Assembly: GCA_014058105.1 (NCBI GenBank)
Contig: JACGCM010001511.1
Coordinates: forward strand, 806,001-870,000
Direction: 5' to 3'
Length of the DNA: 64,000 nt
Source of the DNA: Kingdonia uniflora
Lineage: Eukaryota; Streptophyta; Magnoliopsida; Ranunculales; Circaeasteraceae
Part shown: positions 25,780 through 58,640 of the stretch, one piece after another
How the letters are laid out: each line of letters begins with the position of its first letter
How positions within the stretch are numbered: the first letter of the stretch is position 1
Position numbers and translations under genes: made by a program
The notes under the pieces: generated by a model
The model's input: the letters and a program-made list of their open reading frames with translations, nothing else
Told to the model about the DNA's origin: nothing
The model's database searches: none

Positions 25780-26197
25780 CAGTTTATGCACTCGGAGGTG
25801 GTGGCAGTGGTCGGTCTACCCTACCTTAGCCACCGTCTCCTCCTCCGTAACCCCCACCACCCCACCATCTCTTCCTCTGATCCTACTCAGGGTACCGATT
25901 AGACATCATCGGACGCATACCAGCTGCTTCATTCACCGCTGTATCAGCATCCTCTGCCAGAAGACGTAAACCAATTCCCCTCCCCTGCTCCGACGTTACC
26001 ATATAGTGAAAGCGTTGTATTTGATAATAATCGTCGTCTGCCTCTTCCACCTGTTCATACATCATCTCATGGACGGTAGGACACACTGGAATGGGAGTAG
26101 GAAATTCAAGGGACAGGGTCCCAAAGTATCAAAGTCGTAGCTCTTACATCTAGGCAAAAACCCTAGCTTCGTGCGCTTGGCGTCTGGTGGTCACCAT
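25780..26197 (-). pseudogene. Small protein with TSE-LAEDA motif and Gly-rich tail, broken
   Basis: From ATG 26197 the minus strand reads MVTTRRQAHEARVFA, three early stops, then PTPIPVCPTVHEMMYEQVEE, ADDDYYQIQRFHYMVTSEQ, GLRLLAEDADTAVNEAAG and, after another stop, RWWGGGGYGGGDGG and a Pro-rich end. I do not recognise a named family. It aligns along its whole length with the protein at 58204-58640 inside the second Tat-type element: YFG..LE, PTP.P..PT, VE..DD/ED.Y, RFH..V.TSE, LAED.A and GGGGY..GD. The function is unknown; the acidic and Gly-rich composition suggests protein or RNA contacts but does not show it. It lies on the strand of the transposase gene. Confidence 0.7.
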
Positions 26198-27361
26198 CTT
26201 CTTCACGGTGTACTTGCCGAATAAGTTTAAATAAGGAATAAAAAAGTACTTTCCGAATAAACCACATTTGTATTTAATGTTGTGTCAAATCCAAATCTCA
26301 GATTTAGTTCAACACAGTAGACAATAGTATTTAATGCTAACGAAACCCATTAGAAATGATTATGGAGCATTGGAAAAGTATTTGTTATTTAATGAAATAT
26401 ATGTCATCCAACAATAAACCATTTGTCATTTGTTTTATGGTCATTGTCATTTATAATCCATAAATTGCATGGCATTATTAAAATGTTGTCATTTGTTATA
26501 TAAGATTTAGAATTTTATCCTTAAGAGTTTAACATTTTAATGACAAAAATTAACATCACTAAAGATAAGGCATATTACACTTTACTCCTTCATATTTCTC
26601 TACTTGTTAAGATCAAGAGATTTTAACTTGGACAAAAAATATTGCGGCATCTCCGTTCTGATCTCCGAGATCCTTAGTTTAGTGTAAGTTTTAGATGTGA
26701 TAGTGTCGAGGTTCTGATCGCTCCCTTGGCTAGAATTTGTGACGTCTTCCGTCGTTGATGACTGCAGCCTTTTAGAATCACCAGGCGTATAGGATTCTCA
26801 AAACCAAGTTTTGATCTGACAATAGTATTGTGGGCAATGGTAGAATTAATCTCCCACCGGGCGGCTTAGAAACTCTGCAAATGTGACCACAGTCACACCT
26901 TTTCACCTCATTTACCCACGCCCATAAATCATACCTACCAATTTTGTGAGCGCATTAACAGAACCAGCGGTTAGGGTTGAGGCTTGTGCGTGAGAGCAAA
27001 GATCACAATTTTCACCATACCGACAAATAAGGGAATGCATCATTGGTAGGGAAGTATGTAATGCTTAAGAACTGGAAGGAAGTGTGCAGGTTATGTAGTA
27101 TAAGGTTATGACAAGCTATTAATAAAGAAATGAAAATTAGCACATCACGATGATACCCTTGGTCACAACAAATGCCATATCTCCGTCTTTAAAGCCGACA
27201 GATTATTGCCTTTACAGAAGAATTGACAAGTCATTTTTAAAGTCAACTTTGATTATGTTTTCAACAACCTATCTAACCAAAATATCCATGTGGTTCCCGC
27301 TACTCTAAACAATAAGCCCTAAACCCTGCCACGCGTGATTCAAAGTCCTAATTCTCCCAAG
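26198..27361. other. Intergenic stretch inside the Mutator-like element
   Basis: No protein-coding similarity seen. AT-rich with ATTTGTCATTTG words around 26400-26490 in plus orientation. The right end holds the likely promoter of the first small coiled-coil gene, with TATATAAA near 27363 and AAACCCTAAA-type words after it. Confidence 0.5.
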
Positions 27362-27422
27362 TATATAAAAAAAAACCCTAAACTAAAGCTCTAACCCTCA
27401 ACTCTTTAAAACTTCTCAAGAA

Positions 27423-27858
27423 ATGTCACACTCCCACTCTACTCGATTTAGTTGTGCATCTTCTAGTACTCCCCCTAGATTGGTTTGAGGCAGTAGGGAT
27501 TGAGAAAGATTAGGTTGACGAACGTCTATTCATGTTGAATAGAATTTTCCTAATGGAGAAGGATATCACTGGTGAGAAGGTGCAACTGCTGAAAGAGCAT
27601 TATGAAGAGTTCAAGGAGAAATTAGGAGAACTCGATGAATTGAATGAAGAACTGGATAAAATAATAAAAAAGAAAAGAGAGCATTCTGAAGGGTTTAAGT
27701 TCCATATCCGCTTCTTGGAAGATCAGCTCTACGCCCAAAAGTTGGACCGAGATGAGTACAAGAAATTGCGGGAGGAGTTGGCCTATAAAATTAGCTGTCT
27801 CGAGCAGAAGATCATGGCTATGGAACGTGATCATAATTCCTCAAGTGAGAAGTTGTGA
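27423..27858 (+). pseudogene. Small coiled-coil protein, copy 1 of a tandem pair
   Basis: An ATG at 27423 opens MSHSHSTRFSCASSSTPPRL and then meets a stop. After a one-base frame difference relative to copy 2, an open 108-codon segment from 27532 reads LNRIFLMEKDITGEKVQLLK, EHYEEFKEKLGELDELNEEL and ISCLEQKIMAMERDHNSS, which is heptad-rich and very charged. A TATA-like TATATAAA lies some 60 bp upstream. The function and family are unknown to me; it is cargo within the Mutator-like element. The 3' part is intact, the 5' part damaged. Confidence 0.6.
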
Positions 27859-28423
27859 ACATTTGGGCTATTTCTAGTTTTTTTTTTCTTTTACTGTTCG
27901 GATGCTTCGATTGTATGAACATTTCTTTTGTTTCATTTCGGTTTTTCGCTAGAGAAGATCCATCATATATAAATGATATAAGGGAACCAAACCAATAATA
28001 AAGACTCCTTCAACAATGGTAGATAAATGTTGAACTTAACATAACTGGTGATAACATTTGAACAGAGAAATGATATATTATGGTTAAACAATGACAGGTC
28101 TGGAAAGATATAATGACATATAGCTTAACGACAAATGCAAAATTATCTTCAACATATGGAAAATTGATGTGACAAGTAATGATAATTGATTAGACAATTC
28201 AGTTTAAATACTCATATTACTTACGTGTAGAGAAAGAAACGACGGCGCCGAACCAAGTGATAAGAATTTTCACCATATTCTCTACTCTTCTCAATGCATT
28301 AAACTTCCCTTATAAAAGTTTTAAGTTCAAATAAACTATTCTCTACTCTTCAACTATTCAAGCCAAACACCCTAAACTATTTTCAACTTCTGAAGAAAAA
28401 TATCGCACTCCACTCGAGTTAGC

Positions 28424-28822
28424 CATGTCTCTTCGAACACTCCATACGATTGGTTTGAGTCGATAGGGATGCAGGATGATCAGCGTGACCAACGTCCCTA
28501 CAAACTGAATAGACTATTCCTAATGGAGAAGGATATCTCTAGTGAGAAAGTACAAATGCTAAAAGAGCATTACGAAGATTTTAGGGAGAAATTAGGAGCG
28601 TTCGATTATATCCAGGATGAACTGTACAAATCTATAACAAATAGAGATCAGTATTTTGAAAAGTTCAAGTTCCATATGTGCTTCTTGGAAGATTAGCTCT
28701 GTGCCATAAAGTTAGACCGGAATGAGCACAAGAAACAGTGCGAAGAGTCGGCTTCTAAGATTAGTTATCTCGAGCAGAAGATCCAGGCATTGGAGCACGA
28801 TCTGGAATGCAGAACGTGATCA
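28424..28822 (+). pseudogene. Small coiled-coil protein, copy 2 of a tandem pair
   Basis: Lies about 1.0 kb after copy 1 and is similar from the upstream TATA region (CTTATAAAAG near 28310) to the 3' end. The frame SSNTPYDWFESIGMQDDQRD runs into LNRLFLMEKDISSEKVQMLK and continues as FKFHMCFLED, where a TAG at 28694-28696 replaces the CAG of copy 1. After the stop, ISYLEQKIQALEHDLE still aligns. The two copies are complementary in damage: copy 1 is broken early, copy 2 late. No known domain seen. Confidence 0.6.
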
Positions 28823-29423
28823 AGAGGAGTTGTGAAAATTTAATATTTTGGTATTTAGTTTGTTCGTTTTTTGTGGTAACTAGTACTTTGCCTTTGTATG
28901 AATGAAAAGATGTTTTGTTTGGTGCTATTTTGTTTGTTTTTTGCAGTTAAGTAGTGGTTTCCGTTTGGTATGTGGCAAACAAAACAATCACAGTTATCTA
29001 AGAAAATAATGATGATAGGAGGGTCAAGTTTAATGATGAACTTAACAAAGCTAATGATAAAAATTCAGCAGACAATGAAAAATTCTTGGCGCATAATGAA
29101 ATAATATAAACCAACATATGGGAAATTCTTTATGAACAAATGACAGTTCAAAATAAAACAATGATATTGTGGATATAAATAAATGAGAAAGTATTCATAC
29201 ACAAATGATACTTCAGAAGCAAACAATGAGATCATACAAACAAACTAATGATACATTCTCCGTGTACAAATGATAGTTTTGTGCTAAATAATTATACAAT
29301 GGAAATAGACAAATGAGAATTTCTTTGTTAACAATCGAGAGTTACAATTAGATAAATGATGAATTTCTTAGTACTTACGATAAAGATCATAGAAATAAAT
29401 GATACATAGAGTACCCAAAATCA
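28823..29423. other. 3' flank of the transposase gene, no gene seen
   Basis: AT-rich, with many AAATGATA and AAATGACA words in plus orientation, i.e. TCATTT on the transposase sense strand. No coding similarity. Confidence 0.5.
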
Positions 29424-30180
29424 TCAGTACAAACTGATTGCAACATCTTCATATGGGATGACAGGCGGATCAGTGCTCATCGTAAAAGACGGTGCCATTG
29501 TCGGACGTGTATTGTCATTGGATGGGATTGGCAGAAGCTTACAATAATGGCGATTGTGTCCATTTTTTTGACACCTATTGCAAAATCTTAGTTTGGTAAC
29601 AAGATCAGGTATTTTTTCCCTTCTCTTCCATTGCGTGCGAGGACGACCAGCTCGAACTGTTAGAATAGGAGCGCGAACACGTGGATCTATTTTTAAATTT
29701 TTCCACTGCTTAATTCCTCTTATAGGAATCCATATAGGTTCATTAACTGCCTTGTATGTATTATTTGTATAGTATTCAGAGACACGTGTAGTTGGATCAA
29801 CATTAGCTAGACCCAGAGCGCGTACTCCGTGTTCACAAGGTATACCCATCATTTGCTACCAACGATAAGGGCAAGTACCATCTTCAATATTTAAAGAATT
29901 GGTTCTGCCATAACTAGCCATCTGAAAATGGTGACGTGATGAACGAACCCTGCAGGTTAGTGAATCTGCAGCAAACTTTCTACTCTCACAGTGATCCGTA
30001 GCCCATGGCGTTAAGTGAGATTGACTCTTCTCAGCTTCCTCCCTATACGTGTTGGACATTTCTAAACAGATTCTACGCAATTCCACAATAAGCACATGGA
30101 TAGGGAGATCTCTTACTTTTAAAATAACGTTATTCCAACTCTCGACATGATTTGTGTAAGCGACTCTGTATCAAAAAAAA
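29424..30180 (-). pseudogene. MURA-type transposase, C-terminal part with SWIM finger and zinc knuckle
   Basis: Minus strand: RVAYTNHVESWNNVILKVRD, LPIHVLIVELRRICLEMSNT, SHLTPWATDHCESRKFAADS, the SWIM finger CPYRW, a stop, then MMGIPCEHG, and the DPTTRVSEYYTNNTYKAVNE and PIRGIKQWKNL blocks, ending with the CCHC knuckle CNRCQKNGHNRHYCK. All are consecutive parts of Mutator-like (MURA) transposases, which bind and cut element ends in the nucleus. A single stop (near 29856) splits an otherwise open frame running to the natural end at 29424. Confidence 0.9.
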
Positions 30181-30389
30181 TAACAAACCATAGATGTCAA
30201 ATGCCAAATGAGCGTATACAGATGAAAAATGTAATCATACAACTGTAAAAGGAATAATAAAGAAATGATCAAAAATAATGGCAAAAAATGACAAATAAGA
30301 ATGTAAATGGACTTCCAATGACTATTGTTCATATAACAAATGATTAGTTGAGCAATACAGAGTGACAACGTACGTACCTACTCATTGGA

Positions 30390-30959
30390 ATGTATAGATT
30401 ATACAATGATTCCTTGGGAATACCTAGTATGTATTGGAGACCCACTGGATTTGTATTCCAGATAGCATTCATCTGCTTATCAAAATCAATACTGGTTAGG
30501 GCCTCTGCTACCATCTTAAATGTGATCCTCGTGCTTTCGTGGGTAATTTTAATGTTGTTAGATATGTGGAAGGCGCAAAATGGATTGCAAATGGAAACAC
30601 CTTGGATACAACATTAATAATTTCGGGTTCCTGTTAGAGATGATGACGAATCAAGTGTCATAACCGTAAAAATTTGAACCAAACATCTCCACGAAGTATG
30701 TCCAACTTTTGGTGGTCTCCGAGTCTGTTATCAAAAATGCAAGTGGAAAAATATGATTACTTGGGTCAATGGCGATGGCTATTAGTAGAGTCTCACGATA
30801 TCTCCCTTTTAAAAAAGTTTTGTCAATCACAACAACTGGTCTTAATAGTTTATAAGTTTTTTGGGGGGGACCAAAATACCAAAAATACCTTGTGAATCTC
30901 TTATCCTTACAACTCGCAGTTTGTATGTCAAATACAAAATCTGGGTCAACCAACCTCAC
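30390..30959 (-). pseudogene. MURA-type transposase, catalytic (DDE/D) core
   Basis: The block at 30959-30651 reads DFVFDIQTASCKDKRFTRYF, LRPVVVIDKTFLKGRYRETL, LIAIAIDPSNHIFPLAFLIT and DSETTKSWTYFVEMFGSN. The first Asp (VIDKTFLKG) and second Asp (ITDSE) of the MULE catalytic core are present. Downstream, 30640-30390 gives pieces of the region before the SWIM part in shifting frames (about FCAFHISNN, TFKMVAEALTSIDFDKQ, NAIWNTNPVGLQYI). It is part of the same gene as the 29424-30180 block, and an intron with TCATTT words (30180-30370) lies between them. Confidence 0.88.
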
Positions 30960-31334
30960 TTTCGCAAAGTAGCTCGTAAGTAGTTGGTATGCATCTTAAA
31001 AGCTGCCTTGCATCTGAAATAATTACGTAGATCAATTAAAATTATGGAGCAGACAAATGATAAACAGTATTTTACAAATGACTTCTATGGTAACTACAAA
31101 TGACAGAGTGCTTTACAAATGACTTGTATGGCAAGTACATATGAGAATAAATGATAAATAAGGTTGCACAAATGACTTTTATGGGAGAACAAATAACATA
31201 TAAAGTGATGATATCTCAGCGTGGGCTTTTTCTTTCGTACACCAGGCAAGATTGTATGTTACATCAATATTGTGATAAATTTGCATATCATCAATAATTC
31301 CGGAAGGTTTGTAGTTTGGGTCTTTTTGTAGTTT

Positions 31335-31700
31335 TTACCTGATTATAGAAGCAACCCATCTACTAGACGTTGCCTTATACGCGTCCCTACCTTCAGCTTC
31401 TACTCGGATGTAACTATGCATGGAGTAATAAGTACTTACTCTAAATATGGCAGAATTGACCAACCTTGCCGTATAAATCTGCCAAGAGCATTTATGACCT
31501 TTGCAACGTACCACAATTTTATATTCGTTGCTCATAACGTGTTCAAAATTAAACTTGTTTACAACTGCATAAGCTCTTATGTGATTCTTGAGTTCAATTC
31601 TATCTCGATATAAATCACCAATGCTAAACTTTTTACTGAAGTCATAGGGATCCTCCATATACGCAGCAGATTTTAGCCAAAAATCCATAAGATCTTTTAC
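31335..31700 (-). pseudogene. MURA-type transposase, MuDR DNA-binding domain exon
   Basis: An open segment of 117 codons reads FSKKFSIGDLYRDRIELKNH, IRAYAVVNKFNFEHVMSNEY, KIVVRCKGHKCSWQIYTARL and STYYSMHSY. This fits the MuDR family N-terminal DNA-binding/zinc domain, with a C-x4-C pair (CKGHKC) and the H-S-Y end. Downstream (31340-30960) is an intron-like AT-rich part with AAATGATAAA words. The exon is intact. Confidence 0.85.
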
Positions 31701-31841
31701 CTGTTCAGGCTGTGGCTCAAACTGAAACTCAGCTAAACAAATGAAAAATATTTAACTTAGCATGACAGAAATTGAATAAGAAATGATAAAGCATAGAACA
31801 AAAATGGCAAATTTTGTGAACTTGCCAGAAGTTTCAGTTTG

Positions 31842-32680
31842 TCAAATGATAGGTTCGGGTTCAATTGAAAGTGGAACATTAGTTAACATAGGTTCATTTG
31901 AAGGAGGAATATTAATTAACATAGGTTCATTTGAGAGATGAATACTTGATTGAGGAATAGAAGGTTCATTTGAGAGGAAAAGCTTAGTAGGGATAATTTG
32001 AAAAGGTTTATTTGATTGAGGAATATTAGTTAACACAGGTTCATTTGAGAGATGAACATTTGATTGAGGAATACTAGGTTCATTTGAGGGAGGAACATCA
32101 GTTCGGATAGTTTCGAAAGAATCATTTTCATCATCCACAAAAGGTCCAAACCTGTGCGGATCAAGCCCTCTACCATTTGTTTCAGGGTAACCCCTGTATT
32201 CAGGTTTAGGATCAAGAAATAAGTTATGCCGCAAGGTCCCCCCGCTTTGCTGGCAGACAAGCTTCTACCTGAACCAGTATCTTTGGTGGTGGACAACCCT
32301 TTACCCGAAGAACAAAAATCAGAAATAAAGTTTTGGGAGTTCTGGGAAGGTACCCTATGGTCATTAACAATCCATATGTGAAAGGGCGTGCCGGGATTGG
32401 CTTTATGCATATTGATTATTACGGTAAAGTCCTGGACTGATGAAATTGCGCATGCATAACCATGGACGAAGTTGTACAGCTTACAGTCCTCACGACGGAT
32501 TTCGCTTGTTTTTTCAAGGAGTATAACAAAATCTTTGTATGACGAGTGCGCTCTTAGTGAGGTAAGTTTTGTACTTCCTCCAACATAAGTAACGATTAAG
32601 CTGATCTTTGGACGTACGATATACCCACCAAAATGAACAATGGTATAAAGCTGAATTTCATTCATCCCTGAAACAAATGA
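31842..32680 (-). pseudogene. MURA-type transposase, N-terminal PB1-like domain and repeated linker
   Basis: From about ATG 32665 (MNEIQLYTIVHFGGYIVRPK) the segment runs through a PB1-like fold region of about 130 residues (LTSLRAHSSYKDFVILLEK, CKLYNFVHGYACAISSVQDF). A frameshift near 32225 then moves the reading to a second frame at 32234-31842. That part reads HRFGPFVDDENDSFETIRTD and then repeated SNEPSIPQS-like modules (SNEP occurs at least six times). PB1-like N-termini occur in plant MULE transposases. The upstream ATG at 32713 is possible, but its extra residues look like intron. Confidence 0.75.
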
Positions 32681-33539
32681 TATAAATAAACAATTCCGTT
32701 GATAAAGTACCAAAAAACAAATGAGAAAAATGATATAAAACTGAACTTCAGCAATCCCTCAAACAAATGGTAGGAATACCAAAATAAATGATATCAATGA
32801 ACAATTTCGGTGATATAGTAGCAGAAGACAGATGATTAAAAAGTTAAAGAAAAATGATTATGTACGAATTGTATCATCTTGCATAACATATTTTCTTACG
32901 ATAAATGGGACAAATCGTGATGCGGATACACAGTTAGAGATGATGGATACAGAGTTAGAAATGATATTTATTGAAATGATTATTTTATCGGTCGGAGAGA
33001 AGGATAACAGCGGTATTTGGCAACGAGAATAACATATGATAGCAGCGATCTTTTCCTCCCAATGACCTCTGTGTAAGGACTTTAGCAAAAGCAGAACGAT
33101 AGTTTAAAAACTTGGCACATGAAGGAGACAAACAGTACATAAAGGAGAACGTGCATTGATTTTTGTAGAAGCTTTGTTGTTGAAGAAGAAGAAGAATAAG
33201 AAGAAGAAGCTTTAATTTTTAAGGTTGGTAGTGTATTAAGAGGGGAATCTTCCCTCTTATTACTGTTCTGATTATTGTAACAGATTAGACTACTCAACCA
33301 CTCCAGTAGGATAGTTTCTCATTTTTTTTTGCATTAATTATCATTTGTTATGCGAGAACTTTGGCATTTGATGTGTAAATCTTTGTCATTGTTTTGGTAT
33401 AGCTTTGTCATTTGTTGAGTAATCTTTGTGAGTTGGTAAATTTATTACTGCAGCAGATTAGACTACCCATCAACATTTAATGTTTGAGAATAGGGTGGCA
33501 ACTACGGGGCAGTAGGTGGGACCCTTATCGATTTGTTAA
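32681..33539. other. Upstream region of the transposase gene
   Basis: Holds the leader and promoter by position. A (GAA/AAG)n run lies at 33181-33210, and TCATTTG words in plus orientation lie at 33340-33430, opposite to the rest of this half of the element. No coding similarity. Confidence 0.45.
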
Positions 33540-33606
33540 TTTTTGTATCAATTTTGTAAAGATGGCAAAAACTAGTATTTATTCTCATAATTTCCGATAT
33601 ATATTC
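33540..33606 (-). repeat. Right terminal inverted repeat of the Mutator-like element
   Basis: Inverted copy of 14129-14190; includes TAAAGATGGCAAAAACTAGT and ATTTATTCTCATAATTTCCG. The outer edge was set where matching stops (CTCTCC at about 33606). Confidence 0.8.
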
Positions 33607-33949
33607 TCTCCTTGATTTTCTCCATATTTTAGTAATTTCAAAAATATACTTAAATTCATAGCTTTGTAGCTCACCTGAGGGATGCCACATGTCTTGATTT
33701 AGTTGGGTCCTCACCTCCTCACCCAAATCTTTCCGTAGGAAATCTAGACTCAATTGGTACTTTTTAATTGTTTCCTGCTGAAACGACTGGAAGTACTTCT
33801 TTCCATTTGATTTACCCAGAAAAACAAAAAGGACCAGCATCACACAAAGAGCAACTTCACAATGTTTGTTCTTTTCATTACATTTACATTCTAAAGTAAT
33901 AACTGGATCATCTAATGTCAACACATTTCCTTGTTATTGATAAGTAGGA
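33607..33949 (-). other. Flank with an open reading stretch of unknown nature
   Basis: A minus-strand open stretch of 140 codons (33924-33502) crosses the right TIR. Outside the TIR it reads CKCNEKNKHCEVALCVMLVL and FQQETIKKYQLSLDFLRKDL. I recognise no family. It is cut upstream by the LTR element at 33950; the pre-insertion continuation is at 42905. It could be a piece of an old gene or chance. Confidence 0.3.
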
Positions 33950-36900
33950 TGTCACGCCCCAAAATCCAGTAATCGGTAGCTAGACCAATTACTGAGATTC
34001 GAGGATGTGCAGGTCAGGGAATCCAAAGGTTTGCCCCACGAAAAACTGAGCCGCAGACAAATTTTGGCCCAGTCATTCACAATAGAGTAATAAGGAAAAA
34101 TAGAAATAGCGGAAGACTAAGATAAAAATATCAAAACGTAAGATTCTACAAACCTCAACGCAACAAGCCCGACACTAATAACAGGAGAATGAGCCCCCAG
34201 CTCAGCTACCCAAAGATCACCAATACAATAACTATAACCAAAAACAACCTGCCACTGAAAGGGGGATGCGAGAGTGAGCAAAAAACGAGCTCACTAGCTC
34301 CCAAGAATAGCTAAACGATTATACTAACCAATGAGATGGATATAATAATGATAATAGGATATAATAATATCTAACGATAAACAATATATATATCTAAATA
34401 TATGCAGGAAGCCTAATAGGTATCTAATAGGTACATAACTAGTCTAATGATTATATGTAACTATACTATAATAATACATACACATCTCGAGGAAAGGAGT
34501 GCTAAGACTATAACTACACTCCAGTCCCAAGGACTACTAAGTACACTTTAATCACTACTGTGGCCCTCAGCGCCACAAGTGACTAACCAACCCCAGAAAT
34601 ACAATCACACATGAGGGTAAACACCCTCAGCTCACAATAATCCAACAGGGTTACCCAAACCCCAACCAGGCACAACCCCGAAGCTATCACAAGCTGAGAG
34701 AGATTGCCCACAACCAGAAACCTGCCTAAAGCTCACAGCAAGCAACCAGACTAATTAGCCTAATAAATTACTTAGATATAGAAGAGGGAGGTATAGATGC
34801 AAAGTGGAGAGGAATATGCAGAAAGAAGATGAATCTAATTACACTACAAATCAATTAGGAGAAGATGAATTCAATAAGTGGAGATGAATATGATAAACTA
34901 GTATAATCCCATAATTATCCCAATGCAATGATATGTTATGATTATCCCAAGTGCAGAAGATTCTATGTTAAACATAATGCAGAAAGGGTTAAGGATCCCT
35001 ATCTGAAGAACCTACGAATTGGAAGTATGCAGAGATGCAATTATATGTTTCATGATGATGATGATGATGATGATGCGCTATGATGCATAATGATTTAACG
35101 ATGTCAACCCAAAGGGCTAACCCCCGGGACTAAAGTGGCTGACAACTGCTAAAGAAGGATTGCCTTAAAGGACCATTATGGATACAGGTACGATTTTTCT
35201 ATGCTGACCAAGTTGGGGGAACTACACTGGGCGTCACGAACACCCCAAGGAATCACATCCTAAATCACACACAAGAAGCCACCATCCATATCACATATAA
35301 TATGGGTCAAGGGATGTATTCGGTCGCAATAAGATAAGAGAATATATATCTATGGATAAAAGTAAAAATCCTAAAGACTGAAACACAACTATTGCCAACA
35401 CAGCCAGCACACAATAGGATAACCACCTGCATGAGAGCGTGGCAACCAAAACTAACACAGATGCCCTCTTATGACTCATTTGCACCATCTAAACCTAGAT
35501 GAAACAACAACTTAACCGTCACGACATCTAAACAACATCAGTCTCAAAGATTCCTTAAAGCAATATGATTACCATCAAGTACTACAGTACTCTAGCTGTC
35601 AACACGGACTAGTACTCATGGGGTGACCTATAAGTGTCCAACAAGTAGCCAACAATCTCTAAAAACCGAACTGCATCACAATCCTCCTAATTATGTACAT
35701 AAGTCACCAGCACGAATGTGTAGGAAACCACCAGGTCTGTCTACACCCAAGGTAACAATCTCCGTGAATAGATGTTCGACGGTGACAGTTTCTCTATACT
35801 GATGTGATAGTCCACCCCAGCAAATTCCAACATCTCGGGTGATGTACAACTTTATAAACCACCAGGCTCAGTTGCGTACCTCACTGAGCCATACTATCTC
35901 GCAGCCTCCTTGATGACAGAAGGGAACACAACCTTAACAGCCTCATCCCGGGGAAGGAAGGCTCACGAGTAAGCTCTATTAGCTCTAAGAATCATAAGGA
36001 TAATAATTGTCACAACACGATAAACAAACAATCCTAAGGCAAACTATCAGAAGTTCAACATCCACGACCAACCACCACGGATAAGCTGTCTGCTCACCAC
36101 CAACTACTAATAGTACAAGAGATTCTACACTCCCACAAGGAATCTAATATTCCAACCAACCATGAATTACAAAGACAGTGCTCAAGGACCAGGCCTCGAG
36201 AACACAGAGTACACCTAGGCTATTCCTAAGACAAATCAAAACAATAGCAGGCAAGAGGACGGGTTCCAAATCAAAGACCATGTCTTACTGAAGCTATATC
36301 ACCCCAAGACTACCCTAGAACCAAGTCCTGCATCCTAAACTAATCAAGGTCCTACACTATAAGGTGAGTACTATAGTCTCAGAACTACACTATCTCAACG
36401 TAATGGCGGCGAAACCACAGCTGTCCATACATCTCCACTAATAGCCAAACCTAGCTACAAGTGCCCTGAAACAAGCTGGGCACCCTAATAACTAGGCAAT
36501 AATACCATACTCAATATATTTTATATATATTCCTTAGTCAATATTATATATATATAGCGATACTGAGGCGTCGTAACACACTGAGAAATGCCTTTGTTCT
36601 CAACCTCAACGAAGAAAAGAGTCGCGATAACCACCCTCAATGAAATTGGTCTAAGAGGAATCTTAGGAGTCATCGTCACATCGACGACAACAGAGAATAA
36701 CCTCCTCTGGCTAATCATAACCTGCGGATTCAATCTAGTAGCTAAACTCACATTATTACGGGCTTCACTAACTTATCAAACCCTTAAATACTCTTGTCTA
36801 AGGTAATACTAAACGGATTACCAGTAAAGTGTCTTAAGCAATTAACCCACATACTTCCCTAGTCACAAATATAATATATAAAACTAGGCATTTCTATAAC

Positions 36901-37960
36901 TCACGAATCAGCATAATAATCTAGTTATTCAGGAAATAAAACTCACTTGATAATAATCCAAGTCTGGCATAAACCAACTCGGAAAGTCGAACCTAGGATC
37001 GACGACTAGGCAATCAGAACAACGAACAAGCTACCACAACCAATATCAACAACAAGTAAACAATCAATTCAAGAAAATGAAATCAAACCCAAACCCTAGA
37101 AATCAGACCTACGCCAAAATTGAGTGAAAGGAGCGGAAAAGAAATCGAGAATTTCTTACCGAGGATAGGAGCAAAGCTTGCGACGAAGTGGGCGAAGAAT
37201 CCTCGAGCGATGGGAAAGATAGGATTTAGAGTATGGTGGATAGGGGAATAGGTTAGGGAGAGAGAAAAAGGGGAAGTGAGGAAAAAAGAGGAAATAAAAC
37301 CCAAAAAAGCTGAAAACGTGCCTCTGTTCGAATAGGAAATGATCCTGTTCGAATAGAGTGAAGTATATTCGAACAGAGACAAGTCTTGTTCGAATAGAAC
37401 GAGATCTATTCGAACAGAAATGGTCATGTTCAAACAGAACTGCTCCTGTACCAAAAAAATAACCCCGGAAACACCACGGACCACACCGGACACCCCGGAA
37501 GCGCCACGAACCACCACCACTACCACACAAACACTACTATAGGCCCAACAAAGGTTTCTCAAGGCAAAATCACCATCTCCACCGCCTCACGACCACCAAA
37601 ACGCCTAAGCCCCCCAAAAGAAATTTTTTCCTCAGGAGACTCCGGAAACCTACCGGCCAATCCAACAGCTCACCGGAACCACCCCAAACCACACACACAT
37701 CAAACAAAAATCACTACCAACCCATATAGGGGTTCCCAAGGCCACAACCCCACCTCCTTCTCCGAATAACCTCCGAACTGCCAAAACTACAAAAATGAAT
37801 CTAATACTAAACTACCGAATGGAATAAATTGATGCATAATGGATGAATAATGGATAAAAGAGTATATGCGGAATATGAATGCGGAACTTAATGTGGAGGC
37901 AAAATAATAATAATACTTAATAATAAATAATAAAGCAACCTAAAAATCTGGGACATTACA
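33950..37960 (-). repeat. 3' LTR of the non-coding LTR element
   Basis: Runs from TGTAATGTCCC (minus strand, at 37960) to GGGGCGTGACA (at 33950). Aligns over its whole length with 38845-42899. Contains a (GATGAT)n run near 35050, the phased TTCGAA array at 37318-37440 and a conserved leader segment near 37160-37260. Open stretches within it are not conserved as proteins. Confidence 0.93.
37318..37440 (-). promoter_or_regulatory. Phased TTCGAA palindrome array in the 3' LTR
   Basis: Five TTCGAA sites and one decayed (TTCAAA) follow each other at steps of 20-21 bp, each in a CTGTTCGAATAG-like context. It lies upstream of the CT-rich leader in the element's transcription sense. The sister LTR has the same array at 42291-42410. 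Twenty to twenty-one bases is about two helix turns, so all sites face the same side of the DNA. Confidence 0.6.
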
Positions 37961-45279: not shown

Positions 45280-45321
45280 TTTATTTTTGTAAGAAAAGCT
45301 AGCCTTCCTGAACACCATTCT

Positions 45322-46260: not shown

Positions 46261-46479
46261 ACTACTATCCACCACCATGTCGCATCATGGGCTTTCCATA
46301 TGCTATTAAAGGCATTTTTTACTTGCAAAATTCCCGTGTATGTCCGGCCTCGAGATTTGTTGGTCCTGATTTTGTGGGTCATTCGCTATTCTCTCTAAGT
46401 TTATTCCCAGTACCATAAACAACATCAGAATATCATGGGGTATCTTCTATCCTTCGATGTTGATAAAGCTACTCAGTTT

Positions 46480-48480
46480 TATTGTGCAGTTTCTCCACAA
46501 GTTCGTTGGAAGGTTTATTTATTCTCTAAGGGGTACTTCTGTTGCATAGTAGTCTCTCCAGAAGTAAATCTTTTCACCGTTGTCGATCACCCACCCCACG
46601 TGTTGTCATACCAAGTATTCCATTGCTTTTATCCCACTCCAAATGGATGATCTCTTGTAACATTGTATCACCTCTCCATGCCTATTTTTGAATTTAGCAT
46701 TCATGAAGCATGCCCAATATTCACTTTGTTGAGTGAAAGTCTAGTATAGTTTGTAGAGAAGTGCCTTGCTCACTTCCCCCAGTTTTCAAATGTCGAGACC
46801 ACCCTTCCTGTATGGGCTTGCACACCTTTTCCCATTTAAGGGTGATGCCCTTCCTTTTTGATGGATCTCCTAACCATAAGAAGTTTCTAATGATTTTTTC
46901 ACCCTCTTCGATAAGTAACTGGGGCTATTTGTAGACTACCATATTGTATATAGGTGTAATATTAAGGACTAATTTTGCCAACACCACCCTACCTTGAAAT
47001 GATTAAAGTCATCCTATTCAGCCAATCGTTCTCTTCCTTAGTTTCTCTACCAAAGGTCTCAGGATGTTCTTTGTAGCCCTTCCTTGAAAAAGGGGTATCC
47101 CAGGTATGTTTCTTGCAGCTTTCCTTCCTGGAATCCAAAAATGTCTAGAATCACTCTTCTTTTGGTTAATGGTACTCCCCCCCCCCCCCCCCATAAAATT
47201 CTTGCTCTTCTCCATACTTACAACCTGTCCAAATGCTTCATGGTATTGAGTAAGGACTTTTTTCAAGTTTTGTAGGTCTCTGGTATCCCCATTGAGGAAA
47301 ATAAATATGCCATCTATGAAGAACAGGTGTGTTGGAGCTTACATTTGCCGGATACTGAACATTGTGGGGATTTTGCCTTCTTCCTTCTATTTCTGCAGGT
47401 TATCACCCAGAATATCTTCAATGAAATAGCAGTGGAGAGAAAGGGTATCCTTGTTTAAGTCCTCTTCCAGGACTAAATTACCCTGTCGAACTCCTGCTAA
47501 CTGCGATTAATATCTTTCCACTGGTGATAATAGTCATAATCAACTCACAAAAATTTTGGAAGAACCCAAAGACTTGGAGAGATACCTTTAAAAAATCCCA
47601 ACTTAGTGTATCATAGACTTGGGTTATATCCAACTTGAGCCCCACATTTCCCCCTTTTTCTCTTTTTTTTCATCTCGTTGATTGACTCGGATGCCATCCA
47701 GATATTATTGTGAATACTCTACCCCGTGATAAAGGCACTTTGCTCTTGGGATACCACTCTTTTCGCTATTGGTGATAATCTAGTAGTCAGAATCTTCGTA
47801 ATTGTTTTGAGCACAAAGTTGATTAGACATATGGGCCTGTAGTGATTTACTTTCTTAGGTTTCTTGATTATCGTGATTAACACTCTTATATTTGAATTAA
47901 AGTTGATTGGGATCCTTCTGTCTTTGAAGAACGATGATATTCCTTTGCAGAAATCCTCCCTAACCACTGCCCAAAATGATATGAAGAAGGCTCTTAGAAA
48001 TCCATCTGGGTCTGGGGAGCTATCCTTGTTAAGACTAAATGCAGTTAGCTTGATCTCGTTGTCATTTGGGATTCCAGTCAGCATCATATTTTCAGTTTGC
48101 TCCACTCTTACCATTGTCACATCCAAGATGTTGCTATTTAGATTTACCTAGCTCTCTGAAAACTTGTTTGAGTAAAACTGGAGGATATGCGCCTTTATCT
48201 GATCTTAGTTTTTCAAGGTTATACCTTCCTCTATCTTGATATCTGTAATTATGCGGTTTTCCTTTCTAGCTCTCATCATGCTATGAAAAAAATAAGTATT
48301 GTGATATTTTTCTGTAAGCCACTTTATTCTGGATTTTTGTGATATATGTCTAGTCTTAAAATTAATATCCTGGTCAATGTCGCCACACTGCCATTTATTT
48401 TCCAGATTGAGTTGTAATTGTAGCAGTTCCTCCTCCATTCCCTTTTTGGTCCCTCTCACCGTGTTAAGTCTTATTTGTTT
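46480..48480 (-). pseudogene. LINE reverse transcriptase, active site altered
   Basis: Blocks in order: IKWLTEKYHNTYFFHSMMRA (about 48300), LNKDSSPDPDGFLRAFF, IRVLITIIKKPKKVNHYRPI, CLINFVLKTITKILTTRLS and SQEQSAFITG (48126-47719), then HLFFIDGIFIFLNGD (about 47330) and YHEAFGQVVSMEKSKNFMGG (47266-47018). The catalytic box is F-A-D-D in active relatives and reads F-I-D-G here (GGC codon at 47311-47309). Frameshifts lie between blocks. A run of 16 C (47177-47192) sits inside the domain and codes the odd GGGGG. Confidence 0.87.
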
Positions 48481-48484
48481 TCAC

Positions 48485-49329
48485 TGCTTGATATCATTCT
48501 TGAGTCTCCTGAGTTTTAGCATTAGAAGGAATAAAGGTGCAACATCAAGTTATTTTTTCCAACTTCTGCTAACCATTTCTCCAAAGTCTGCGTATGTGTT
48601 CCATGCCCGAAGGTATCTAAAGGGAATGTTACAAGGTTTTAGGGCTGCCTGGCATTCGCAAAATATTAGAGAGTGGTCTGACACTGGTCTTGGAAAGTTT
48701 TTAATTCTCCATCCCCAAAATTTATTTGACCAGGTTGGGTTGTGCAAGCATCTGTCCAGACAGCTCAGTATTCCGTTGACTCCTTTTTGTGCATTACTCC
48801 ATGAATAACTTACTCCCATTGTGTTACTCTCAGTTAGATTATCCCTGTCTATGAAGTCCCAAAATTCGTGCATGGCTCTTGTTAGAGGCAGCCTTCTACC
48901 CCTCCTTTCCTCTACTCTGAGTACATAATTGAAATCCCCCAAGAAAATTTATAATTTATTGATGCTGTTAGCAACTGATATTAGTTCACTCCACAACGCT
49001 GTTCTGTAAAGAGTTAGGCAGTTTGTGTGTACAAAAGAAAAATTACAGCTCATATATCTTACTGTGATTTACTGATTTGAAGTGCTCATAGTTTCAGGTT
49101 CTTGCCTATCTAGCATGTCTCTCTATAGAATCCATATGTCCCCTTTATTCTACCCATCTTCATTCGTTATTATTTTCCTTACAAATCCTTGAAGTCTTAA
49201 ATTCGCAGCATATATCTTTGGTTCTTCTATGCATATAATATCTGGTTTAAGCTCCTCCACTTTATGCTTCAAGTATGCATGAGTTTTGCAATTTCCCACA
49301 CCTCAAGCATTCCATAAGATCACTTTCAT
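48485..49329 (-). pseudogene. LINE apurinic-type endonuclease, start of ORF2
   Basis: ATG at 49329 starts MKVILWNA, an in-frame stop, GVGNCKTHAYLKHKVEELKP and DIICIEEPKIYAANLRLQGF. From 48942 the stretch MGDFNYVLRVEERRGRRLPL, SYSWSNAQKGVNGILSCLDR and the PRPVSDHSLIFCE block follow. GDFN and SDH are the catalytic signatures of the exo/endonuclease family that nicks target DNA. Broken by stops and frame changes between 49200 and 48950. Confidence 0.87.
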
Positions 49330-49759
49330 TGTCTATTATTGGATCTTGTGATGGTCAATGAGTGTATACATTTCTTCCTTTATAGACTTGGTTTAACCCT
49401 AGCGCTTTTACAATAGATTATTCTTCCTCTTCTATTTCATCTGCCTAGCTTCCAGGATTAAGCAACTATCAAATTTCTTCAAAATTTGCTTCTTCTTGAC
49501 TTTATATTTCCCCCTGTTCCTCCCTTGTTTATGCTGTGTTACATTCATTGGGAGAGTTCTCAGATTCATGTTGTGTTTTGGCCTTGTTTTATGTTTCTCC
49601 TTCGGTAGTCTGACTGGAGATAACCTCTTCATAAATTTTAGCTTCTATCTGCTCCCTTGTGTTGTCTAGTAACACTTCAAAAGTATTACTCCTAGTGATC
49701 GCAACCTCTTTATGTGAGGCTCTGCTATTGGTTTTGCTCAGCTTTACTAGTGACCATTC

Positions 49760-51179
49760 TTCCTTATTTATAATTCTCTTTACTTGCTCTAGTTGTCTCA
49801 TTGGCTTTATCACCCCCGAGAAGTATATAATCGGGGATATGCTGCTCTTACTGAGGGTAGTTGTTTTCTGAAAATATATGGGTTTATTGGGTTGTTGTGG
49901 TTGTGCCAGTTTGGTTTCCTTGCTTTTTGTTGTACCTTCTTGTATGGAAATTGGCTTATTGGTTTTGTTCTTCTATCCCCCTTTTCGTGAGTTCTTCTTT
50001 GTATTCTTGCCCAGTAACTTCAGTTTCATTCTATCTACATGCCCTTTGCACTATCTTTCATTTCGTAATGATATGCCCTACATTGTTGCAATGTTTACAG
50101 TATTTAGGGACCCTGTGTAGCAGAAACTCTTGTTTCACCATTCTCCCTTATATGTCAAGTTGTATATGATAGAGGATTGGTTTAGACATATCAATGTCAA
50201 CAAATACATTTGAATGGTAGCCATAGTCCTAGTTTCTTGTATATTGATCCAGATGGATCGGTGTCCCTTGAGTTTTACCAACGGATAGTATAATTTTGGG
50301 GATCCACATCTCTATAGGTAAATTGGAAATTTACATCAAATGAGACCATTTGAGTTGTTGAAGCTATCTACTAAGAATAATGGACTCCACATTAGTATCC
50401 TCATCGGTATTCTATCAACCATCCATGGTCCTCTACTCCATATCAAGATCTTATCCTCCTCGTTCTCCAGTTTGATGATAAAAAAACTTTTGCCAATTGG
50501 TATGAGTTTGCACGACCCTTTGGTTTTCCAGTGCATTCGTGCAAACTCTTGGACTGCTGTAAAGCTAATTTTCCGAAGGTCTAGCATGCCTATCAAACTG
50601 AATTGATATTGGGATATTCGTTCTTCTAGTTCTATGGACAGGATTGTAACCACTGGTGTATCTCCTCTCTTGCTCACTGACAGTAGCTCTCTCATTTCCA
50701 CTGTTTGATTCTTCTTGTCTTTCACCTTGTCTACAAATGTCTGAGTTGCTGTTATTTTACCTGGGGTTTGGTTTGTTGGCTCTGGGTTGGTTATCATTGT
50801 TCTTGTTCTCTCTTTGTCTTGACTTGAATTCACCTCTGGCAATTTTAGCAAAATAGGGTTAATTTGCCGATGCCTTTTCCAAGAATCCCCACGGGCAGAC
50901 CACTCTTAATCCATGCTTGTTACATTCCACCATTTCTTCATGTGATGCAATTTGGTCAGGGATTTTACTAGGGTTTGCAATCATGTTTCCCTTAACTTGA
51001 ATGGCATTGTTGATTTCTTCTCTAACCGATTGGGGCTTTTTAATGCTTTGATCTACCCCAGACCCCTTCCCTAAATCTGAATTTATCTCTTGATTCTTCT
51101 CTGCTACCTCTTGCGATGTTGGTGTGTATATCTCCATCCCTCTCTCATTATTGCGTCCCAACGATTTGATCGATCCCAT
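49760..51179 (-). pseudogene. LINE ORF1 with DUF4283 and damaged zinc knuckle
   Basis: 51179-50859 is a Ser/Asn/Lys-rich N-terminus. 50851-50336 holds DUF4283 (VTILSIELEERISQYQFSLI, FTAVQEFARMHWKTKGSCKL, FIIKLENEEDKILIWSRGPW). After it, minus-strand reading near 50110-50060 gives KYCKHCNNVGHIITK followed by a TGA (50060-50058) exactly where the last Cys of the CX2CX4HX4C knuckle is expected. ORF1 proteins bind LINE RNA. More acidic and Ser/Thr-rich sequence follows to about 49590 in broken frames. Confidence 0.82.
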
Positions 51180-54639: not shown

Positions 54640-56300
54640 TATAAGTATTCTCTCCCTGATGTCAACTACATCAGTTGCATATCTGTCTCATGCCGATGCT
54701 GTATACAATTTTCTTGAACACTGACATTGATAAAGCTTTTGTAAATAGATCAGCTAGATTTTTACTTGAGCATATCAGTTGAACTTTGATATCATGAGCT
54801 CATGTGTGTATGAAAAGAGCTTAGGTAGGATATGTTTGATTATGTGACCCTTGATGTATCCTTTTTTTATTTGTGCAATGCAAGTGGCATTGTCTTCGCA
54901 TATATCCATCGGGAGGCTTATAACATAAGGTAATCTACACGTACTACGGATATGATGTACGACAAAATCTTAACCAAAAGCATTCACGACTTGTTTCATG
55001 AAGTGAAAATATCTTTGAGTAATTGGAGGAAGTAGCTATCGAGGTTTGCTTTGTAGATCTCCAGGAAATTACGGTGTCTCATCAACATGTGAATACATAT
55101 CCTATTTGTAAGTAAGCTTTGTATAGATCAAAAAGGTATCCAGCGTGTACATATCCCTTTAATTGACTAACATTTGGTAATTTATTTGAGTAGAATAAAC
55201 CTATATCAGTTATTCCACGAAGATAGCACATAATGTGCTTGATGCTATTCCAATGTCATTGAGAGGTGTTGAGCTAAATCTAGCTAACATATTAACTAAA
55301 AATGTAATGTCAGGTCCAGTACATTGAGCTAAATATAATAAGGCTCCAATACAACTATGATATGGTACGTCAGATTTAAAAAGTATTTCATTGTCCTCTT
55401 TAGGAAAAAATGGGTCAAGGGATCTGACCACCATTGGAGAACTTAACGGATAACATTTGTCCATGTTAAAGCGCTTTAACACCTTTTTAGTATATGCAGC
55501 TTGATGGACAAGAATTCCATTAGAACTATGTTCGATCAGTAAACCGAGGCAATATTTAATCTTTCTGAGATCTTTCATTTCAAACTCTTTCTTTATATAT
55601 TCCACAACTTTTGTAAGTTCTCCAGAAGTCCCAATTTGATTGATATTATCGACATATACTGTAATGATAACGAATTTGTATTTTGTTCTCTTAATGAATA
55701 CACATGGACAAATGAGATTATTGATATATCCCTAATTTATCAAGTTCTCACTAAGCTGATTGAACAACATACGGCCAAATTGTTTCAATCTATATAAGGT
55801 ACATTTAAGCTTAATTGAGTACTTGTCACGTGGTTTTGTTACGAGCAATTGGAGTCCATCTAGGACTTTTATGTAGATATATGTATCTAACATTCCATCT
55901 AAATATGCAGTAACCATGTTCATAAGATGCATGTCAAGTCCTTATGGGACTATCAGATTAATGAGATATTGAAATGAAATTGTATCCATTACAGGGGAAT
56001 ATGTTTCTTCATAATTAATCCTAGGCCTTTACTGGAAACTTTATGCCACGAGTCATGCTTTATAGCGAACGATCTCATTTTTCTCATTGCGTTTTTATGC
56101 AAATACCCATTTGTAACCAATACGGTTTATATTTTTAGGCGTTAGGACTACAAGTCCAAATACCTTACATTTTGCAAGTAAATCCAATTCTTCTTGTATT
56201 GCAAATTTTTATTTTGACAAATCATGTCATTTTCAACATTCATCAAGACTGTGTGGTTTAATATCATCATTCATGATATCAGTAGCTACTGCAAATTCAA
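54640..56300 (-). pseudogene. Copia reverse transcriptase and RNase H, active site altered
   Basis: From about 56050: RINYEETYSPVMDTISFQYL, MHLMNMVTAYLDGMLDTYIY (55932), KCTLYRLKQFGRMLFNQLSE, KFVIITVYVDNINQ (55645-55690), MKDLRKIKYCLGLLIEHSSN (55605), VLKRFNMDKCYPLSSPMVV, CIGALLYLAQCTGPDITF, then the RNase H part ending in SSKNLADLFTKALSMSVFKK and GMRQICN (about 54670). The Y-V-D-D box reads Y-V-D-N (AAT at 55647-55645). Stops and frame changes occur throughout. Confidence 0.87.
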
Positions 56301-56835
56301 ATATATTGTCGACAATTATTTCTTTGCGATTCTGTAATTTTTTTTACTATGCATAATTTGTAGAGATCTCTTCATTTACAGGTACCTGTACCTCATTAGA
56401 GGTATAATTATCTTTGAAGACTTCATCCTCGTGAGAGTTTATTTTGTCAAAAATGTGAATCATTTTATAGCATTTCAACACAACTTTTAATAGGGATCTT
56501 TCTCTTTGAAGCCTTTTCTAAAGTGCTACTATCTGTAGGATTAATTAGCCCTTTATGTTTCATTTTTCGAGGAACTAAATCTTTCGAACTAATTGGTCGT
56601 CTACACTTCAAACGCACATTAGATGATTCATTTATTATTACATTTGACAGTTATTTTTCTGGGACATCAATCTTTACTGGTACGTTTGCAACTAGTATAT
56701 ATGATTTGGTTACTCATGCTATATCTGTAAATCTATCAGGCATTTGATAAGCAACTTTCTGAAGATGAGTGATCATTTGTACTTTAATTTCATATTGATT
56801 GGTTCGTGGATCGAAATGAACATATTTATTGCATT

Positions 56836-57329
56836 TCAATATAAGTTAAGTTGTTCAATAGGCTTAATTTGTCCTTCTAATGGTGGGAAGATTGTCCCAT
56901 AAAAATGGTAATCCGCAAAATGTGCAATAAAAGTATCACCTATTACAGGTTTTGGATACAGTATAATAGATGGTGAGTCGAAACAAATATAAATTCCTAA
57001 TCTATGTTGAGGTCCCATTTTGGTATATTGTGGCGGTGCAATTGGAACATGTACCACACACCTAAAAATACATAAATGTGAGATATTTGGTTGGTGGCCA
57101 AGAACAAGTTGTAAGGGAGAATACTTGCGATAGGTTATGAGGAAAATCTAGACCAATGCTACTGCATGTAAAATATCATGATCTCACGTGGATATCGGTA
57201 ATTTTGTCCTCATAAGCATGGGTCGCGCAATCAGTTGAAGACGTTTAATAAATGACTCAGCTAATCTATTTTGGGGATGAACATGAGCAACAGGATGGTC
57301 AATGTCAATTCCAATTGACATATAGTAAT
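56836..57329 (-). pseudogene. Copia integrase C-terminal part, truncated at 57330
   Basis: Starting at the junction: GIDIDHPVAHVHPQNRLAES, FIKRLQLIARPMLM and KLPISTWDHDILHAVAL in broken frames, then VHVPIAPPQYTKMGPQHRLG and IYICFDSPSIILYPKPVIGD, FADYHFYGTIFPPLEGQI (57057-56836). These are the end of the catalytic core and the tail before reverse transcriptase. The catalytic residues upstream lie beyond the insertion. The stretch 56300-56836 is low-complexity linker with no clear motif. Confidence 0.85.
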
Positions 57330-57908
57330 TGTAATGACCAAATTCCATAACTCGATACGATTAGGAATTAGCTATCACACCAAATGAACCTGTAGCAATA
57401 CTCTACTAGAAAGTAAGAAATGCAAACAGGTGTTTTTAGCGTGGAAAACCTCTGAATAGGTAAAAAACCATGACCACGTATGGAGGATTTTTGTAAAAGT
57501 ATCTTTATTGCTTTGACTGGATATCTTTATTACAGGTGATGTCTAGAACATAGAAATGCTTTTCATCTCTTAAATAAGAAGTTTTAAGTAATTTTTCTGC
57601 TCCCTGTTTCTTCTAGAATTTTTCCTTTTTATAGGCTTCTTCACAACTCTTCATCGTGCTAGAACACATTTTCTGAATAATGTGGTTAGTGGTAGTTGAT
57701 TGAATATCTGACAAGTTCGTGGGAGACAGGTGTCTTTGACTGTATAACGTTTTCTGGGTTTAGCTTGATGTAATTTTTTAAATAGTTCATTGGGTTGGTT
57801 AGAATGTTAACTGGAGTGTCAAGTGCTAAAATTGTGTAAGCCTAAGATGAAGGTAATTCGAGCTGGATGAGCTTGATTTTGAGTGAGATAAAGGGATAAG
57901 TCCCTACA
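57330..57908 (-). repeat. 3' LTR of the second Tat-type element
   Basis: On the minus strand from TGTAGGGACTTATCCC (57908) to GGTCATTACA (57330). Similar in order to the solo LTR at 43538-44325 (shared TTTTAGCGTGGAAAA and GGTAAAAAACCA segments). The copia element is interrupted exactly at its outer end, which supports the left border. The five bases outside (57325-57329) are GTAAT; the matching duplication would be at the far end of the element. Confidence 0.8.
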
Positions 57909-57921
57909 ATCGCCCCCTAAC
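57909..57921 (-). promoter_or_regulatory. Polypurine tract of the second Tat-type element
   Basis: On the minus strand GTTAGGGGGCGAT lies directly before TGTAGGGAC. Same form as the tract at 11191-11203. Confidence 0.82.
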
Positions 57922-58203
57922 AACCGAAGTCACGAGTGACTTTGGTTGATAAAGGATGATTAAAAGTTTGAATTTTAAAATGGGGTAATGATGGCGTTCG
58001 ACTGGGTGAAGGTTTCGTGATATTGGGAAGTGACGAGTATTAAATGATGATGCGGATGTATGTGAGGATTGCGTTTGAATAGTCGTGTCCGTAATAAATG
58101 ATAACGCTTGGGATAACGTACCTGCACAATAAAGTTAGGGTTATATAAAGAGTACCTTGATCGATTCTTTGGAATAATTCTTGCATGTGTAACATTCTCT
58201 GAG

Positions 58204-58640
58204 ATGGTAAAAGCTTGGAGTATGGCTTTTGAAGAGGGGATTGCGTCTGAAGCGCAGAGGTTGAAGTTGAATTACTTTGGTGATCGTTTCTTGGAAATGG
58301 CGATCCCAACCCCTGTTCCTCCGACGTATCAAGGCTTGTCGGGAGAGGAAGCGGTTGAAGCTGAGGAAGATTTTTACTTTAAGTGGAGATTTCATGTCAT
58401 TGTCTTGACAAGTGAGGAACGTTGGGCCTGTCTCTACATCCTTGCAGAAGACAGGGCTAGGAGTTCATATACAGGGAAAGGTGTATTTGCGGGGTAGATA
58501 TGGTAATTTCTTGTGTTTTCGTCGATTTTAATGTTGGGCCCTCTTTATCTTTACCAACTTTTTGGTGGTGGTGGTTATAGAAGAGGCGATGATGGCAGTA
58601 GAGGAGGAAGATGGGAAGGGGGATCCTGCTGACACATTTC
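58204..58640 (+). CDS. Small protein with TSE-LAED motif and Gly-rich second exon, antisense in the Tat-type element
   Basis: ATG 58204 opens 97 codons: MVKAWSMAFEEGIASEAQRL, KLNYFGDRFLEMAIPTPVPP, TYQGLSGEEAVEAEEDFYFK, WRFHVIVLTSEERWACLYIL, AEDRARSSYTGKG. After a short AT-rich gap (likely intron, GTAGAT... to the AG before 58560) the frame GGGGYRRGDDGSRGGRWEGG gives a Gly-rich end at about 58568-58623. It matches the Mutator-internal protein at 25780-26197 along its length, including the Gly-rich end. No named family is known to me. The first exon is intact here. Exon borders are inferred. Confidence 0.6.

Follow-up and report, generated by a model that had tools for sequence, protein, structure and literature searches.

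A small orphan gene family shared by Tat-type LTR retrotransposons and a Mutator-like element of Kingdonia uniflora

Introduction

Long plant Gypsy elements of the Retand/Tat type carry antisense TRP28 genes (Transposase_28, PF04195) between pol and the 3' long terminal repeat (LTR). These genes are presumed to be regulatory, and the source that describes them is reported to find TRP28 without likeness to sequences outside transposable elements or to other known elements (PMC11963269). Among DNA transposons, VANDAL Mutator-like elements (MULEs), some of them with Ulp1, encode VANC proteins that counter silencing; in excerpts of the corresponding papers, Ulp1-carrying MULEs are represented by KIU/VANDAL of Arabidopsis, with relatives in melon, grapevine and rice (PMC5735166, PMC13317346). 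Orchid Tat elements, according to an excerpt, took up a 2-ODD RNA demethylase gene (PMC9289625). Here we analyse a stretch of 64,000 nucleotides (the window; C940:806001-870000) of the 1.003 Gb Kingdonia uniflora assembly, in which a MULE and a Tat-type LTR element each hold a copy of one small gene, referred to as gene A and gene B. Kingdonia uniflora is an alpine herb of the Ranunculales. Together with a third gene, C, they make up a real, high-copy orphan family, so far observed only in Kingdonia, which one MULE family has in common with a pair of sister Tat-type families and which bears marks of coding selection. In the open-licence literature, judged mostly from listings, no report of a gene shared in this manner was found.

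Genes A and B

25787..26197, minus strand: gene A, a decayed copy, start at 26197
58204..58494, plus strand: gene B, a 97-codon open frame ending at a stop, antisense to the pol of its LTR element
58564..58629, plus strand: Gly-rich stretch GGGGYRRGD in the frame of B, past stops, matching the tails of A and C

A sequence-only reading of the window had proposed that A and B encode proteins that align from start to end, each with a later Gly-rich tail. Both frames are present, and in both the tail follows stops. In A three in-frame stops fall within the first 23 codons, the frame is then open for 81 codons (26128-25886), and one stop separates this open run from the tail GGGGYGGGD. The Gly-rich stretch of B lies 66 nt past its stop, with one further stop in between.

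If stops are counted as mismatches, A and B are 37% identical over 83 gapless columns from the first Met. Their Smith-Waterman score of 130 compares with a mean of 24.7 (SD 4.1, maximum 44) in 2000 shuffles, and the open parts by themselves reach a BLASTP E of 5e-14 (single comparison). A profile of seven stop-free A copies matched a profile of seven stop-free B copies over 90 gapless columns (probability 99.2%, E 2.2e-19), so that the proposed alignment is confirmed and stays clear of background in the profile comparison. The identity at codon positions 1, 2 and 3 (29 A versus 8 B copies) is 53, 63 and 28%, which places the likeness at the protein level and not in bulk DNA.

When the open frames of the MULE were compared with those of the B element, the A/B match had an E of 6.5e-11, while the best reversed-sequence control match had 0.003. 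A wholesale likeness of the two elements was considered and rejected: besides A/B only short matches occurred, the best at E 8e-5 over 22 residues, which we read as chance although the reversed control of this comparison reached no lower than E 0.003.

Gene C

A profile built from A and B (7+7 copies) was searched against 5.77 billion proteins (E up to 10; 601 candidates; the method needs shared five-residue words). Two proteins matched, with E 7.7e-31 and 3.8e-14, where an earlier protein search with B alone had given no matches. Both are hypothetical proteins of Kingdonia uniflora, GIB67_041553 (P0001) and GIB67_027441, and both are of the C type. The former is encoded at C929:2512033-2512524 (100% over 164 residues), and its locus sits in a Tat-type LTR element. 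The profile search for which the sequence-only reading had called thus yielded two relatives, the placed one in a Tat-type element.

In genome searches with A, B and P0001 the best 150 of 13433, 16131 (first look) and 17777 candidates were scored, so that the copy numbers are lower bounds: at least 150 genomic copies were scored for each query, with identities of 67-81% to A and 71-81% to B (149 copies) besides the window's own genes and of 75-88% to P0001 besides itself.

Alignment of the fetched C loci puts the start of the common stretch at an LTR, about 1.05 kb before the ATG, in 20/20. TGTAATAG stands at the outer end of the C-family LTR in 16/20 loci, and a polypurine tract (PPT) motif was seen in 15/20. 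Gag-pol frames antisense to C were found in a 10 kb stretch further inside the P0001 element. Compared with the B element, three reverse transcriptase (RT) pieces of the C element are 65-77% identical and other pol pieces 45-73%; compared with the window's first Tat element, two RT pieces are 39-58% identical. Between the LTR edge and the ATG there are 292 nt in C (L044) and 296 nt in B. This likeness in pol and the matching distance between ATG and LTR indicate that B and C are genes of sister Tat families in equal location.

The frame of C ends by a stop after codon 109 in 19/20 copies, P0001 being the sole sampled copy without that stop. A TATAWA box lies upstream in 17/20 copies (control 4/20), and AATAAA occurs within 700 nt of the ATG in 19/20 (at +592 to +594 in six listed copies). 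We further observed that in L044-L063 a block 500-600 nt past the ATG, which contains the AATAAA, is 92-97% alike and thereby above most of the interior. In the window, 43535-44325 matches the LTR of the C-type Tat family at 85-91% and is apparently a relic or solo LTR.

Compared by their predicted proteins, A, B and C belong to one gene family of about 97-109 codons.

The LTR element of gene B

57325-57329: target-site duplication (TSD) GTAAT, flanking the 3' LTR of the B element
57330..57908, minus strand: 3' LTR of the Tat-type element, 518/579 aligned positions identical to the 5' LTR
57909..57919, minus strand: polypurine tract, adjoining the 3' LTR
58142..58149, plus strand: TATATAAA box, 62 nt upstream of the B start codon
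60619..63456, plus strand: further antisense frames of the Tat-type element of B, broken

The 5' LTR lies outside the window (G000:C940:877837-878418), and the element spans 15.1 kb from window position 57330 to C940:878418. The Kimura two-parameter (K2P) distance of the LTR pair is 0.116, which would date the insertion to about 4.5 million years ago if the rice substitution rate of 1.3e-8 holds. Pfam places RVT_1 and Integrase_H2C2 pieces on the minus strand; with RT and integrase on that strand, B is antisense. The position that the sequence-only reading had given to B, antisense beside the 3' LTR, is thus borne out, as B lies within the LTR pair and starts 296 nt inward of the 3' LTR edge. 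The host of B has a pol with RT and integrase, a long region with antisense frames between pol and 3' LTR, and a length of 15.1 kb, as in Tat-type Gypsy elements. We take the hosts of B and C to be Tat on the basis of their layout. Both B and C occupy the antisense location between pol and the 3' LTR.

All of the eight fetched B loci agree in the interior, in the LTR (with a deletion in one) and in its outer edge near 57304-57330, and the PPT motif is found in 7/8. Identity among these loci is highest in mid-B. A TATAWA box stands at -59 to -64 in 8/8 copies (control window 1/8). Four pieces scanned within the broken frames at 60619..63456 gave no Pfam match above cut-off, with weak coiled-coil-type matches in one.

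The window's first Tat-type element lies on the plus strand (25-11500); its pol is followed by a 206-bp tandem array (5856-6762), and its antisense frames are broken. No A/B/C gene turned up in this element. On the minus strand, 55210-57147 and 45495-50905 look, from their translations, like Copia and LINE coding remnants.

The MULE of gene A

14143..33596, minus strand: MULE holding gene A, 47-bp terminal inverted repeats (TIRs; 96%) at its ends, flanked by ATAAATATT / ATATATATT (8/9 bases alike)
30654..31751, minus strand: MULE transposase, DBD_Tnp_Mut (PF03108) and MULE (PF10551) in separate open pieces
16169..16720, plus strand: DUF1985-like piece of the MULE, E 5.8e-5, below the Pfam cut-off
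22915..25560, no strand assigned: 21-bp and 149-bp repeat arrays (ACAAATGACAAAT-type) in the MULE, adjoining gene A

The Mutator-like nature of the element around A, as proposed earlier, is supported by the transposase domains, which lie on the minus strand in pieces (31751-31338 and 30995-30654). All 30 A loci, counting that of the window, have at least about 0.8 kb of upstream DNA in common with the window MULE, and the downstream side is variable. Two further A copies, C2232 and C756, were fetched with 10 kb per side. The C2232 copy is complete: it has a 48-bp TIR pair, an exact 9-bp TSD TTATTAAGA and a length of 17.2 kb, is colinear with window 33594-14143 and has the transposase frames. 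It also encodes an Ulp1 domain (Peptidase_C48, E 3.2e-12, in L043); its counterpart of the DUF1985-like piece had no Pfam match. The C756 copy matches window 33164-21869. The hallmarks of a MULE, namely transposase, TIR and 9-bp TSD (exact in C2232, 8/9 in the window), are present, and the host of A is a MULE of 17-19 kb that carries Ulp1 and has terminal inverted repeats.

Some further features of this region were noted. A coiled-coil-like plus-strand frame occurs as a tandem pair (27478-27777 and 28448-28747, 76% alike) between transposase and gene A and is also present in both other fetched MULE copies. Next to A the MULE copies carry an acidic frame in which Asp/Glu form long runs and whose opposite strand is His-rich (L041:703-1191, L043:770-1249, window 25007-25369). 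Two stretches of almost 4 kb in direct orientation (33938-37791 and 38833-42729), about 84-92% alike and 4.9 kb apart, are perhaps the long LTRs of an element whose interior is short.

Relations among A, B and C

To compare the three genes, 29 A, 8 B and 20 C copies were used over 83 codons (one A locus, L035, was left out for its shifted frame). Mean protein identity is 60% for A-C, 41% for B-C and 38% for A-B. A FastTree tree with midpoint root separates B from A+C with a local support of 0.96 (0.74 for A, 0.79 for C, 1.0 for B), and A-C is the shortest distance with 0.65, the others being 1.31 and 1.23. That A is nearer to C than to B favours, as far as these sequences can indicate it, a transfer from Tat to MULE. 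The proposal of the sequence-only reading that the gene had been captured twice or had passed between unrelated classes is supported, with this direction favoured.

The DNA identity between A and C is 0.26, i.e. at background, in the 30 nt before the ATG, rises to 0.75 over the 30 nt that follow, and fades some 380 nt past the ATG. That A could be a Tat fragment inserted in the MULE with its own LTR, which the sequence-only reading had named as an outcome against it, is rejected on account of this background identity upstream.

Coding selection

The pN/pS values (proportions of nonsynonymous and synonymous differences) are 0.28/0.69 for A-C, 0.38/0.72 for B-C and 0.40/0.90 for A-B. In either of the shifted forward frames pN roughly equals or exceeds pS. 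The low pN in all three pairs shows purifying selection on the protein. Measured against B, A and C have almost equal pN (0.40 and 0.38), so that A is without a sign of relaxed constraint. We therefore infer from these comparisons that selection retained the protein on either side of the transfer, though many present copies are broken. This between-family test was preferred over the ratio of nonsynonymous to synonymous substitution rates (dN/dS) within families, for which the antisense comparison covered one antisense frame; within B the ratio is 0.39 versus 0.72-0.82 in other frames.

Stop-free copies amount to 7/29 for A (104 codons), 7/20 for C (109 codons) and 7/8 for B (97 codons). The frame ends by a stop at a fixed codon in 19/20 C and 25/29 A copies. 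A G|GT is found near codon 93-94 in the window's A and B and in most of the 20 C copies, and an intron in A, if there is one, would measure about 40 nt, which is too short for a plant intron. The fixed-codon stop in A and C suggests plain short frames rather than a conserved intron.

Fold and potential function

The family had been described as nameless, and we likewise found no convincing Pfam or PDB relative. B alone had no Pfam match, and A alone matched BCCIP at E 0.19 only. Among the 14 A/B members no family was matched by more than three, the best match being DUF4634 (E 0.0013, one member), and PF04195 is absent among the nine families matched at E up to 1. A 14-member profile gave no PDB chain at E up to 10, a two-member profile gave two at E 1.7. 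Scans of viral contigs returned 9 and 7 stretches that fit the patterns, none confirmed as a relative. The predicted isoelectric points (pI 4.8 for B, 4.4 for A) are acidic. In a four-sequence model of P0001, most of residues 1-91 is predicted as helix (2-25, 47-68 and 70-91), with ten-residue means of the predicted local distance difference test (pLDDT) of 62-82 over residues 1-100.

By analogy with the VANC proteins of VANDAL MULEs and the antisense genes of Retand, the most likely function would be to help expression of the element, perhaps through anti-silencing.

Weighing the explanations

The explanation that we consider best, and to which we give about even chances, is that the family of A, B and C began as an accessory gene of the Tat lineage. 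A coding stretch that starts at the ATG and ends shortly beyond the Gly-rich tail would have been copied by the MULE from the C side and then retained. In the Tat elements a TATA box of the gene's own would drive its transcription antisense to gag-pol, and the encoded protein, small, acidic and for the most part helical, would work in the nucleus and aid the expression of its own element, e.g. by countering silencing. One may go further and think of a shared anti-host protein, a nuclear silencing suppressor from Tat that was acquired by the Ulp1 MULE and kept by selection in both classes, which would amount to an accessory gene pool across the class boundary; this we put forward tentatively and regard as rather unlikely.

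A chance likeness or low complexity might be suspected because both proteins are acidic and both end near a Gly-rich stretch. With a score of 130 against at most 44 in 2000 shuffles, a gapless profile match at E 2e-19 and an open-frame match at E 6.5e-11 against 0.003 in the reversed control, this is hardly conceivable and was rejected. It is also very improbable that the stretch works at the level of antisense RNA or DNA, with no protein made. Its location antisense to gag-pol beside the 3' LTR in B and C and the stops in many copies would suit such a role; the excess of pS over pN, seen in all three pairs and only in the gene's frame among the three forward frames, and the stop at a fixed codon in 19/20 C and 25/29 A copies speak for a protein. 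A host gene captured more than once, by the ancestor of Tat B and C and separately by the MULE, and since lost, undetected or too diverged, appears unlikely to us, though far less so. Capture of host genes is known for MULEs and LTR elements alike, according to passages of one source (PMC13317346), and an A-C identity that sets in at the start codon fits a captured coding stretch. A single host copy could also have been missed among the best 150 genome candidates and by a protein search that needs shared five-residue words. However, the relatives found among these candidates and the protein matches are transposon-borne or of the C type only: the profile search gave just two proteins, both C type by sequence, the placed one in a Tat-type element. 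In addition, A is closer to C than B is, and descent from a Tat gene fits this better than separate capture. A similarly low probability is given to an origin in the MULE with a single uptake by the ancestor of the Tat B and C families. The window's first Tat element shows no such gene, so that a gain in the B/C ancestor is possible, and an unrooted three-group tree allows it; yet the root would then fall on the branch to A although the A-C distance is the shortest (0.65 vs 1.31 and 1.23), which needs a much faster evolution of B.

Several observations weigh against the explanation that we favour. Three groups without outgroup give no rooted tree, so that the direction leans on midpoint rooting and on the shared location of B and C, and the support for the separation of A and C is modest (0.74 and 0.79). 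At codons 71-80 the identity is 0.33 for A-C and 0.60 for B-C, which may point to a mosaic nature of A or C. On the side of the MULE, a TIR pair was not seen in the fetched stretch of the C756 copy, only 12/30 A copies have a TATAWA box, and 22/29 have a stop within 104 codons. Within A the dN/dS of 0.50 is uninformative, with 0.49 and 1.17 in the shifted and 0.58-0.59 in the antisense comparisons. As to the product, the P0001 model is weak (mean pLDDT 59.7), a two-sequence B model was useless (mixed helix/strand, pLDDT 48), a Foldseek search with the P0001 model against PDB and a viral library gave no match at E 0.001 or better, and the proposed function is a guess by analogy.

Implications

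It appears that a gene in use by mobile elements is exchanged between their classes. Capture of host genes by plant transposons is known; a gene serving both classes would imply a need that is independent of the mode of transposition. Escape from host silencing is an obvious shared need, for which this family offers a concrete test case. That transposon classes have a gene in common, with selection behind it, is out of the ordinary and open to testing. What is annotated in Kingdonia as a hypothetical protein is in at least one case encoded by a transposon gene, and an orphan gene in a plant annotation can turn out to belong to a mobile element as an accessory gene.

Comparison with known systems

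GIB67_041553 and GIB67_027441 are the same as our genes in being members of the A/B/C family, C type; they differ in that they are catalogued as hypothetical, GIB67_041553 standing within a Tat-type LTR element. B and C resemble the TRP28 genes in their place, antisense and between pol and the 3' LTR, and in their hosts, which are long plant Gypsy elements. In contrast to TRP28, the 14 A/B copies are without PF04195 and short (97-104 codons), and a homologue resides in a DNA transposon.

With KIU/VANDAL, as far as excerpts describe these elements, the MULE of A shares the transposase, an Ulp1 gene, tandem repeat arrays in non-coding DNA and perhaps, by a match below the Pfam cut-off, a DUF1985-like piece. 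KIU/VANDAL elements are called non-TIR in these excerpts, whereas the MULE of A has TIRs of 47-48 bp, and it is therefore not classed as a VANDAL. Gene A is an extra small gene that does not occur in the passages describing them. Compared with the orchid Tat elements, likewise as described in an excerpt, the source of the extra gene is a known enzyme family there, whereas here none outside transposons is known; common to both cases is a Tat-lineage element that gained an extra gene and retained it.

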